Shown here in pieces: positions 45,961 to 48,816 of a stretch of 64,000 nucleotides of DNA; position 1 is the stretch's first letter, and every line of letters starts with the position of its first letter. The DNA is taken from positions 3,720,001 through 3,784,000 of the forward strand of contig NZ_JACHZG010000001.1 of NCBI RefSeq assembly GCF_014193425.1, read 5' to 3'. The DNA is from Microlunatus antarcticus (lineage in GTDB: Bacteria > Actinomycetota > Actinomycetes > Propionibacteriales > Propionibacteriaceae). Both the position numbers and the translations under genes were made by a program. The notes under the pieces are model-generated. The model searched no databases, had not been told where the DNA came from, and saw nothing but the letters and a program-made list of their open reading frames with translations.

Positions 45961-46635
45961 TCAGGCGTTCTCGGAGTCCTCGGAGGAACCGGACTCCTCG
46001 GCCTGCGCCGCGTCGGTCTCGGTGTCCTCGGCCAGCGTGGGCTCGATGCCCAGCTCGGCCTCGGCCTCGGCCAGCTCGGCCTCGACCTGCTCGGCGGTCG
46101 CGGCCGCCGTGATGTTGATGATGAGCGCCTCGGGGTCGAGCCCGGACAGGGTCGAGCCCTCGGGGAGCGTGATGTCGCCCGCGGTGATCTGCGTACCGGC
46201 CTTGAGGCCCTCGATCGACACGACCACGTTCACGGGGATGTGCGTCGCCTCGGCCTCGACCGGGATCGAGTTCGCGACGACGTCGACGAGCGCGTCCGGA
46301 GCCGCCTCGCCCTCGACGAGGATGGCGACGTCGACCGTGACCTTCTCGCCACGACGGACGAGGACCAGGTCGACGTGCTCGATGGTGCGCTTGATCGGGT
46401 CGCGCTGGACCTGCTTGGGCAGGGCGAGCTGGGCGCCCCCGTCGAGCTCGATGGAGAGGAGCGCGTTGGCGGTGCGCAGCGCGAGCAGGGTCTCGTGACC
46501 CGGCAGGGTGATGTGGACAGGATCCGTGCCGTGCCCGTACAGGACGGCGGGGATCTTGTCGGCACGACGGATACGGCGGGCAGCACCCTTGCCGAACTCG
46601 GTGCGCGCCTCGGCGATGATCGTGACCTCAGGCAC
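45961..46635 (-). CDS. rplY: 50S ribosomal protein L25/general stress protein Ctc
   Basis: This 224-residue long form of L25 has an N-terminal 5S rRNA-binding domain (ARTEFGKGAARRIRRADKIPAVLYGHG), the CTC/TL5-type beta domain (HIPVNVVVSIEGLKAGTQITAGDI) and a very acidic C-terminal tail rich in Glu and Ala. GTG 46635 has AAGGAG 8 nt upstream. The 5' region carries two direct copies of a 12-mer (46655-46679). The 281-bp gap to 46916 otherwise holds a possible -10 (TAGTCT near 46800) and the palindrome at 46870. Confidence 0.95.
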   Translation of the reverse strand: MPEVTIIAEARTEFGKGAARRIRRADKIPAVLYGHGTDPVHITLPGHETLLALRTANALLSIELDGGAQLALPKQVQRDPIKRTIEHVDLVLVRRGEKVTVDVAILVEGEAAPDALVDVVANSIPVEAEATHIPVNVVVSIEGLKAGTQITAGDITLPEGSTLSGLDPEALIINITAAATAEQVEAELAEAEAELGIEPTLAEDTETDAAQAEESGSSEDSENA

Positions 46636-46869: not shown

Positions 46870-46924
46870 AGAGTGACGGCGCGCCGGGGTTCTCGGGCGG
46901 GCTTCTCGGCATGTCGTCACACTC
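46870..46924. repeat. Bracketing palindrome, downstream copy (DUF559 gene 1)
   Basis: This 55-bp imperfect palindrome has outer arms GAGTG/CACTC, then ACGGC pairing with GTCGT, then GCGCCG with CGGCAT (one mismatch). The stop codon of the DUF559 gene (46919-46917) lies within the right arm. The partner at 47759-47813 is also 55 bp; the inner segment CGCCGGGGTTCTC occurs in both, in opposite orientation. Confidence 0.75.
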
Positions 46925-47690
46925 GGCGCTCGAAGTGCGCCACCCACTCGGGCGTGAAAGTGGGAGCAGGACCGCGGTAGCCCCGTTCGACGAGCCGTGC
47001 GTGGATCTTGCGCACCAGCTCACGCGGTCGGCGCAGGCGGTCCCGGGTCACGCGGATGGTCGAGAAGTCAGCGTCGGAGAAGGCGTCGTCGCGGTCCAGG
47101 TCGTTGTTCCACTGGCCGCGTTCACGGTGCTGGCCCCCGTCGTACTCGAGGATCAGCCCGAACTCCTCGACGAGCAGGTCGACCCTCCCGATCACGCGGT
47201 CCCCGTGCCCCAGCACCACGTTGCAGCGCGGTTCGGGCAGACCCGCGAGGACCAGGCACAGGCGCAGGCGCGTCTCCGGGATCGAGTCGACCCGTTCCCG
47301 GACCAGACCCGCGGCCCGCCGCACGAGCCGGCAGCCGCGACCGCCGGCCCGTGCCGCGACCGCCTGCAGGTCCGGCAGGGTCACGAGCCCGGCCTTCAGC
47401 AGGGCGTCGCCGGCGGCCACGAGCTCGACGAGGTCGAGGTCCGCTGCCGCCTGGCACCAGGCGGCGGCCGGGCGGGCCAGCCCGTCGCGGTGCGGCGGGA
47501 GCGACCGGACGCGGGAGAGCCGTACGCCGTGCCGCCGGGTCTGCGCCCGGGTGAGCGTCGAGGCACGCACGGGTCGTCGATCGCCGACGTCGACGCCGTA
47601 CAGCTGCAGGGCGGTCACCCCGACGAGCACGGCGTCGGCCGGCAGGTGGAAGCGCGCACGCGCGCAGCGGTCGAGCAGGTCCGGGTCCAC
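46917..47690 (-). CDS. DUF559 protein, VSR-like PD-(D/E)XK nuclease fold
   Basis: This 257-residue protein has a helical N-terminal half and a C-terminal DUF559 domain related to very-short-patch-repair endonucleases. The candidate nuclease residues are intact: Glu in DSIPETRLRL, Asp in VIGRVDLLVEE and Glu-x-Asp in LILEYDGGQHRERGQW. Such proteins are multicopy in actinobacteria and their role is unknown. The gene is bracketed by two 55-bp palindromes: the downstream one supplies its stop codon, and the upstream one ends 68 bp before its GTG. It interrupts the usual rplY-prs neighbourhood, so it is probably an acquired or mobile unit (inference). Confidence 0.82.
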   Translation of the reverse strand: MDPDLLDRCARARFHLPADAVLVGVTALQLYGVDVGDRRPVRASTLTRAQTRRHGVRLSRVRSLPPHRDGLARPAAAWCQAAADLDLVELVAAGDALLKAGLVTLPDLQAVAARAGGRGCRLVRRAAGLVRERVDSIPETRLRLCLVLAGLPEPRCNVVLGHGDRVIGRVDLLVEEFGLILEYDGGQHRERGQWNNDLDRDDAFSDADFSTIRVTRDRLRRPRELVRKIHARLVERGYRGPAPTFTPEWVAHFERRV

Positions 47691-47758
47691 ACCCAGATCT
47701 GTAAGGACCGGACCCGAGATCGGCCGGTCCGTCCCCGCGAGCTGTGGACAAGCCGTCC

Positions 47759-47813
47759 AGAGTGACGACGCGCCGAGGCGCCCCGCAGAGAACCCCGGCG
47801 TGTCGTCCCACTC
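47759..47813. repeat. Bracketing palindrome, upstream copy (DUF559 gene 1)
   Basis: This 55-bp palindrome has outer arms GAGTG/CACTC, a CC bulge, then ACGAC/GTCGT and GCGCCG/CGGCGT fully paired (one G-T). The loop of about 20 nt contains GAGAACC, the complement of GGTTCTC in the copy at 46870. It lies 68 bp upstream of the DUF559 start and 25 bp from the prs stop. Confidence 0.75.
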
Positions 47814-47838: not shown

Positions 47839-48816
47839 CTAGCTCTGCCCGTCGAACAGGCTCGTGACCGAGCCGTCCTCGAAGACCTCGCGGATGGCCC
47901 GGGCGATCAGGGGGGCGATGGAGAGCACCGTCAGCTTGGGGAACTGGCGCTCCGGCGTGATGGGGAGGGTGTTCGTGACGATGACCTCCTCGATCGAGGA
48001 GGCGGTCAGCCGGTCCACGGCGGGACCGGAGAGGACGGCGTGCGTCGCGGCGGCGACGACGGCCTTGGCCCCGCGGGCCATCAGCGCCTCGGCGGCCTGA
48101 CAGATCGTCCCGGCCGTGTCGATCATGTCGTCGACGAGCAGGCAGACGCGGCCCTCGACCTCGCCGACGACCTCGTGGACGACGACGGTGTTGGCGACGT
48201 CGTGGTCACGGCGCTTGTGCACGATGGCCAGCGGGACGTTGAGCCGGTCGCTCCACATGTCGGCGAGGCGGACACGGCCCGCGTCGGGCGAGACGACCGT
48301 GATCTCCGACTTGTCGTAGCGGCTCTCGACGTGGTCGGCGAGGACGGGCAGCGACCAGAGGTGGTCGACCGGGCCGTCGAAGAAGCCCTGGATCTGCGCG
48401 GCGTGCAGGTCGACCGACATGATCCGGTCGGCGCCCGCGGTCTTGAACAGGTCGGCGACGAGCCGGGCCGAGATCGGCTCACGGCCGCGGTGCTTCTTGT
48501 CCTGGCGGGCGTACGGGTAGAAGGGCGCGACGACGGTGATGCGCTTGGCCGAGGCCCGCTTGAGCGCGTCGACCATGATCAGCTGCTCCATCAGCCACTC
48601 GTTGACCGGGGCCGCGTGGCTCTGCAGGACGTACGCGTCGCTGCCGCGCACCGACTCCTCGAAGCGCACGTAGATCTCGGAGTTGGCGTAGCTGATCGCC
48701 CGCGTCGGGACGATGTCGACGTCGAGGATCTCGGCGACCTCGGCCGCGAGCTCGGGGTAGGCACGCCCCGAGAACAGCATCAGGTGCTTGACGTTCGGCC
48801 GCTTGAAGCCGGTCAC
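47839..48816 (-). CDS. prs: Ribose-phosphate pyrophosphokinase (PRPP synthetase)
   Basis: This enzyme makes PRPP for nucleotide, histidine and tryptophan synthesis. The 325-residue protein has the ATP flexible-loop region YPYARQDKKHRGREPISARL, the metal-site DLHAAQIQGFFD and the PRPP-binding loop LLVDDMIDTAGTI. GTG 48816 overlaps the glmU stop by 4 bp, so translation of the conserved glmU-prs pair is coupled. Normal length. Confidence 0.96.
   Translation of the reverse strand: MTGFKRPNVKHLMLFSGRAYPELAAEVAEILDVDIVPTRAISYANSEIYVRFEESVRGSDAYVLQSHAAPVNEWLMEQLIMVDALKRASAKRITVVAPFYPYARQDKKHRGREPISARLVADLFKTAGADRIMSVDLHAAQIQGFFDGPVDHLWSLPVLADHVESRYDKSEITVVSPDAGRVRLADMWSDRLNVPLAIVHKRRDHDVANTVVVHEVVGEVEGRVCLLVDDMIDTAGTICQAAEALMARGAKAVVAAATHAVLSGPAVDRLTASSIEEVIVTNTLPITPERQFPKLTVLSIAPLIARAIREVFEDGSVTSLFDGQS

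Follow-up and report, generated by a model that had tools for sequence, protein, structure and literature searches.

Among the described bacterial systems, the closest to the locus considered here is that of the RAYT genes and their REP palindromes. According to the accessible portions of two reports (PMC2817692, PMC3116915), a RAYT gene is bracketed by palindromes, the repeat is specific to the gene and diverges together with it, and cognate repeats, including those organised as REPINs, occur elsewhere in the genome as pairs and arrays. CGTC-tagged REPs are presented, in the available part of a 2013 report, as lacking a dedicated transposase, and the question is left open there (PMC3733652). 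On the side of the nucleases, the homing endonuclease I-Bth0305I is reported, in the accessible part of a review (PMC3943268), to form dimers on a target nearly 60 bp long, and VsrA of Caulobacter, a DUF559 protein, has a proposed role in mismatch repair, as given in the accessible main text of its report (PMC12907096). DUF559 nuclease genes are a little-studied bacterial family: the open-licence PMC literature yielded nothing joining DUF559 with an inverted repeat, and the co-mentions of DUF559 and palindromes in it appear unrelated, going by titles and the first lines of abstracts.

Here, we analysed a 64,000-nucleotide stretch of the Microlunatus antarcticus genome (the window), in which a DUF559-type nuclease gene lies between two palindromes in the interval separating rplY and prs. 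An earlier note on this DNA had likened the arrangement to the geometry of REP palindromes around RAYT genes, with a VSR-like protein in their place, and this comparison is supported by the bracketing, the repeat specificity, the dispersal and the nuclease-domain match. We propose, with a probability of roughly 0.6, that the gene and its two palindromes belong to a large class of nuclease-palindrome dyads. The features of the site are as follows.

45961..46635, minus strand: rplY (named by eye), flanking the DUF559 gene at its 3' end and bounding the site
46871..46924, no strand assigned: imperfect palindrome of 54 bp on the 3' side of the DUF559 gene, containing the TGA of the gene
46917..47690, minus strand: DUF559-type nuclease gene, 257 aa, GTG start, without the N-terminal region of its relatives
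47743..47751, minus strand: TTGTCCACA motif, between the upstream palindrome and the start of the gene
47760..47813, no strand assigned: imperfect palindrome of 54 bp on the upstream side of the DUF559 gene
47839..48816, minus strand: prs (named by eye), flanking the DUF559 gene at its 5' end and bounding the site

The palindromes had been described as exactly 55 bp long from 46870; each measures 54 bp and the first starts at 46871. Their common ends, GAGTGACG at the start and CGTC[A/C]CACTC at the finish, are present in both copies, and so is the segment found in opposite orientations, CGCCGGGGTTCTC in the copy at 46871–46924 and its reverse complement in the copy at 47760–47813; the outer ends run in the same direction, with the inversion confined to this inner segment. 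The TGA of the gene does lie within the 3'-end palindrome, at 46917–46919 (TCA on the plus strand). The inner arms were said to vary while still pairing, which holds in full for ACGAC/GTCGT and by way of one G·T wobble for ACGGC/GTCGT. Long stems had been attributed to both copies: folded as single-stranded DNA, in 55-nt pieces starting one base ahead of each palindrome and set against 200 shuffles, the second copy reached z −4.1 on the plus strand (0/200 shuffles as good) and −2.9 on the minus strand (3/200), whereas the first is a moderate hairpin because its values are just −2.2 (6/200) and −1.5 (16/200). Folding this modest is compatible with chance or with the composition of GC-rich DNA; however, the strict palindrome pattern matches the entire 4.37-Mb genome twice, at the two gene-flanking copies (control, 0), and the cross-gene and ordinary-gene controls given below contradict such an origin, which we find scarcely credible. 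The motif at 47743–47751, TTGTCCACA, or more generally TTRTCCACA, resembles the actinobacterial DnaA box; TTRTCCACA is present within −300..+60 of 31 of the 68 DUF559 genes in the family and class sets defined below, versus 3 of 278 control genes, all of the latter drawn from the genus of the host.

The rplY-prs site could be compared in 14 of 20 genomes of the genus, those with both genes on the fetched stretch, the remaining 6 being uncomparable. The two genes are close neighbours in relatives, as the earlier note had it: the DUF559 gene is missing from 12 of the 14 genomes, in which the matched ends of rplY and prs lie 172–455 bp apart, and it is present in the genome of the window (G000) and in G010. 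The search for empty sites suggested in that note thus yielded intervals without the gene, which are too diverged for reading an insertion junction; no target duplication and no excision was seen. The G010 gene at this site stands in inverted orientation, and the tree pairs it with the window gene as sisters (support 100/100), at 68% identity; the two could conceivably be independent insertions of two close relatives. The rplY-prs interval of G003 contains the DUF559 repeat type of that genome itself (scores 23–31), against just 13–14 in G012 and G002, where the interval is shorter. The same intergenic site is hence occupied by a DUF559 gene in the genome of the window and by G003's own DUF559 repeat in G003 (L100). 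A gene recognised by eye as gatB is adjoined by DUF559 genes in both G010 and G000 (L060, L061), in opposite orientations, and these two are not mutual closest relatives in the tree.

The link between DUF559 genes and palindromes extends far beyond this site. A search of 198 genomes of the host's family with P0001, a Microlunatus speluncae relative (from G019) that is 50% identical to the window protein, gave matches in 49 genomes at E 1e-10, and the best 40 places, that of the window included, made up a family set in which 39 genes could be tested (L077 being too short). The flank test set the 300 bp preceding the matched region of a gene against a 175-bp piece beginning shortly ahead of its stop codon, in both orientations; the upstream distances are approximate because the start of the matched region is not always the true start. 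At a threshold of 15.1, the 99th percentile of the cross-gene scores in the family set, the two flanks proved alike in 23 of the 39 genes. Among 276 ordinary genes, taken from the window and from twenty 20-kb stretches of genomes of the genus, 7 pass (Fisher p 1e-18), the two highest-scoring of these being copies of another dispersed repeat. Profile A3, built on 35 of the 40 proteins (L054, L069, L071, L077 and L079 omitted), has matches at E 1e-25 in 159 of 296 Actinomycetes genomes, covering 78 of 114 genera in this class. The 30 loci listed include L188 and L189, which the family set contains already, and the too-short L214; without these three, the class set has 27 genes, 25 of them above 15.1. 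Cross scores in this set have a median of 10, a 95th percentile of 14 and a 99th percentile of 43, the last value reflecting a repeat common to several closely related loci; in 22 of the 27 genes the self score is higher than every cross score of that gene, and for L192, L205 and L216 cross scores reach or exceed the self score.

The association between gene and palindrome is firm, with exceptions. The flank test failed for 16 of the 39 family genes and 2 of the 27 class genes; several genes have a palindrome on one side only, and L057 has none on either side. The idea that each DUF559 gene is accompanied by its own palindromes, offered in the earlier note as a check, thus holds for most genes of this subfamily; it fails for four further DUF559 genes that the genome of the window carries from other subfamilies, none of which has alike flanks (scores 8.5–10.5). 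Downstream hairpins were detected at 13/39 family genes, 9/27 class genes and 24/276 controls; because hairpin strength alone discriminates weakly, the case rests on the likeness of one flank to the other.

Outside Actinomycetes, short DUF559 matches were found in 44 plasmid records, of which 12 were chosen (L245–L256; 10 from alphaproteobacteria, 1 from Deinococcus and 1 from a cyanobacterium). Seven of the 12 score above 15.1 and above their own 99th cross percentile of 22, and the repeats of most genes with alike flanks are C/G-rich palindromes on both sides, L253 being one of the seven with no convincing common palindrome; this result is a pointer, not a survey. The possibility that DUF559 proteins are the enzymes of CGTC-tagged REPs was tested and gained no support, the familiar forms of the CGTC-type head being found in the flanks of 0 of these 12 loci. 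Other searches contributed little: no record in the plasmid and phage collections covers 80% of P0001, PF04480 matched one place only in nine alphaproteobacterial plasmid records, too few for use, and one scan of genome contigs returned a single locus, L017, from Microlunatus speluncae.

The repeats vary by gene, as exemplified by GAGTGGACCGGTTGGCCACC (L055), GGTGCGCAGATGT (L063) and AACTCATCAGAACGC (L074). Across 2207 protein pairs with alignments longer than 150 residues, and with repeats taken to be alike at scores above 15.1, alike repeats occur in about 1–2% of the pairs below 50% protein identity, 5/58 pairs at 50–55%, 4/12 at 55–60%, 10/27 at 60–70% and 15/17 at 70% or more, although some of the high repeat scores take in shared neighbouring genes (e.g., L059/L062). 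Repeat and enzyme diverge together, repeats being common mainly to close proteins. Such dependence on gene type speaks against ordinary REP or MITE repeats that are moved by an unrelated transposase and on which DUF559 genes hitch-hike, or near which they prefer to settle. An explanation of this kind would accommodate a different dispersed repeat, CCCTGAGCCTGTCGAAGGG (L117, L119, L095, L097), alongside which no DUF559 gene was seen, but we consider it quite improbable.

Cognate repeats are dispersed in the genomes as well. With up to one mismatch allowed, the L074 repeat has 70 matches in G007 and none in G000 or G009 (reversed control, 1), and its copies in G007 form arrays with a period of ~51 bp, in plus orientation upstream and in minus orientation downstream of the gene. 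At the same stringency, the repeat of another DUF559 gene in the genome of the window (contig C2) has 25 matches there, one of which (C1:1045885) falls inside an ORF and may be due to chance; the corresponding numbers are 0 in G010, 2 in G004, 1 in G001 and 0 in G007. A clearly inverted orientation of the flanking repeats is characteristic of these two array types, those of G007 and of contig C2 of G000. In G000, arrays of the contig-C2 gene repeat occupy the infB–rbfA and rplL–rpoB intervals (names by eye), and the former array is restricted to this lineage: on the stretch of ~1.1 kb upstream of rbfA, 5 copies are present in G000 and 0 in 18 other genus genomes, infB being recognised on 15 of the 19 stretches compared. 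The G007 repeat also occurs as inverted copies on either side of an IS30-like transposase ORF (L128, 756–2078; family assigned by eye).

The same kind of dispersal was observed in another taxonomic family, where the half-site GATCTTGGAGTTGTTC occurs 127 times in G341, 123 times in G272 and 100 times in G389, compared with 9, 8, 4, 3, 2, 1 and 0 times in seven other genomes of that genus and 0, 0, 0, 0 and 1 times in five genomes of other families; all ten genomes of the genus, which span 0 to 127 half-sites, have DUF559 matches, not all of the cognate type. Copy number does not simply track the gene, a point that counts against the dyad model. The four half-sites of G310 all belong to the two palindromes that bracket its DUF559 gene. 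The genome of the window resembles G310 in that its strict pattern matches the two flanking copies only, and the window copy looks like a two-copy, non-amplified state. For the palindrome family of the window, the earlier note had called for a covariance-model search of the genome and its relatives. The resulting model, R1, recovers at least 37 distinct places in G019, at least 16 in G008, at least 6 in G010 and at least 3 in G000 (one of them weak, E 0.007), as well as 1 weak place in G004 and 0 in G001, among 150 candidates scored per genome; these places were tallied by hand from a two-strand list and include the 12 training sequences (7 from G019, 3 from G010, 2 from G000 and none from G008). 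Since only 2, 3, 1 and 2 places adjoin a DUF559 gene in G019, G008, G010 and G000, respectively, most copies are solitary. Judged on these few genomes, cognate repeats are abundant where the gene is present, and their abundance varies widely.

The G310 state, with nothing beyond the two flanking copies of the half-site pair, could also be that of a free-standing homing endonuclease sitting in its own palindromic target, the scattered palindromes being landing sites of other origin. Indeed, I-Bth0305I is among the best matches of the enzyme by both sequence and fold, and its target of nearly 60 bp, as cited in the accessible part of the review (PMC3943268), is comparable in size to the palindromes here, of about 54–66 bp. 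Homing, however, leaves unexplained both the dispersed copies in genomes with the cognate gene and the arrays with a period of ~51 bp, and we regard it as unlikely.

The window protein scores barely above the cut-off of Pfam DUF559 (21.3 versus 20.6 bits) and also matches, weakly, a DpdF model. It has the conserved residues E139, D171, E182, Y183, G185 and H188, and those invariant across the aligned relatives include E139, E182, Y183, G185 and H188. Among 35 relatives, Pfam MTES_1575 is matched by 31 and DUF559 by 30, each of three Pfam AbiEi families by 2 or 3, and the IS200/IS605 tyrosine transposase families by none at E 0.1, these being absent among the 15 families listed. One PADLOC AbiEi model is matched by 24 of the 35 relatives; the window protein matches neither the PADLOC nor the Pfam AbiEi models. 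It starts past the N-terminal, AbiEi-like region, and its G010 sister nearly does so too; the window copy may be inactive or have a changed specificity. The window coding sequence appears to be under constraint (dN 0.258 and dS 0.80 against the G010 sister gene), at a fairly high dS. A profile search of solved structures yielded 3hrl (E 2e-4) and 3r3p, that is, I-Bth0305I (E 0.03), along with weak matches that include Csm6 (E 0.01, in the N-terminal part). With a model of the L017 protein of low confidence (mean pLDDT 52; only the C-terminal domain usable), Foldseek gave nothing at E 0.001, and 3r3p was retrieved with probability 0.97, E 0.7 and a TM-score of 0.73 by target length. Judging by these moderate scores, the nuclease domain resembles that of I-Bth0305I.

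The resemblance of the relatives to AbiEi models raises the possibility that the palindromes are regulatory, with the AbiEi-like region binding them as autoregulatory operators and the downstream copy serving as a terminator. The palindromes do hug the start and stop of the gene, and the stop codon lies within a downstream hairpin in 8/39 family genes and 3/27 class genes. Nevertheless, a terminator has no need of the sequence of an operator, the unlinked copies and the lineage-restricted array would be left unexplained, and the window protein is without the N-terminal region, yet both palindromes are kept. Autoregulation is accordingly granted a small place among the explanations.

We favour the view that the nuclease likely handles its palindromes and, as the best reading, that it spreads them, with putative mobility. 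Under this model, each DUF559/MTES_1575 protein would combine an AbiEi-like N-terminal region with a Vsr-like nuclease domain of the EDxHD type and would recognise its own palindrome, probably by binding in dimeric form to both arms or to the extruded hairpin. The protein would nick or cut the recognised palindrome, and repair would then copy single palindromes, inverted pairs or ~51-bp arrays into intergenic sites elsewhere and, on rare occasions, the gene together with its bracketing pair. This mode of working would be akin to that of RAYT/REP, with a nuclease of an unrelated fold.

More broadly, DUF559/MTES_1575 proteins, from Actinomycetes to alphaproteobacteria, Deinococcus and cyanobacteria, might be dedicated enzymes of REP-like palindromes outside RAYT, and the class a form of nuclease-driven miniature mobile DNA, a joint proposition to which we give about even odds. 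If it is correct, a widespread domain of unknown function would gain a function and families of bacterial palindromic repeats an enzyme, and partnerships of the REP type would have arisen with more than one kind of nuclease. The general question of palindromic repeats without a dedicated transposase would become testable, even though no CGTC-type head was found here, and the gene-specific palindromes provide ready-made biochemical substrates.

Compared with the known systems, DUF559 genes share with RAYT/REP the bracketing, the gene-specific repeats, the co-divergence and the dispersed copies, pairs and arrays. They differ in the enzyme, which is not an IS200/IS605 tyrosine transposase (0/35 relatives), and in the palindromes, which in the window are 54 bp long, of the form GAGTGACG..CACTC and without the GTAG head. 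CGTC-tagged REPs are likewise short palindromes without a known enzyme, and the window palindromes have CGTC near one end, but no CGTC-type head lies beside the 12 short DUF559 genes. A likeness to AbiE systems lies in the PADLOC AbiEi matches of most relatives, a few of the relatives also matching Pfam AbiEi; by contrast, no AbiEii-like partner adjoins the window gene, which has rplY and prs on its two sides (identified by eye from the ORFs and matched in relatives). VsrA of Caulobacter has a DUF559 nuclease domain, as does the window protein, whereas the role proposed for it is in mismatch repair and the word palindrome is absent from the accessible main text of its report (PMC12907096). Finally, the EDxHD, Vsr-like homing endonucleases (I-Bth0305I, 3r3p) have a similar nuclease domain, in which, on the DUF559 side, E139, D171, E182 and H188 are conserved; unlike them, the window gene is intergenic, lies outside any intron and has palindromes on both sides.
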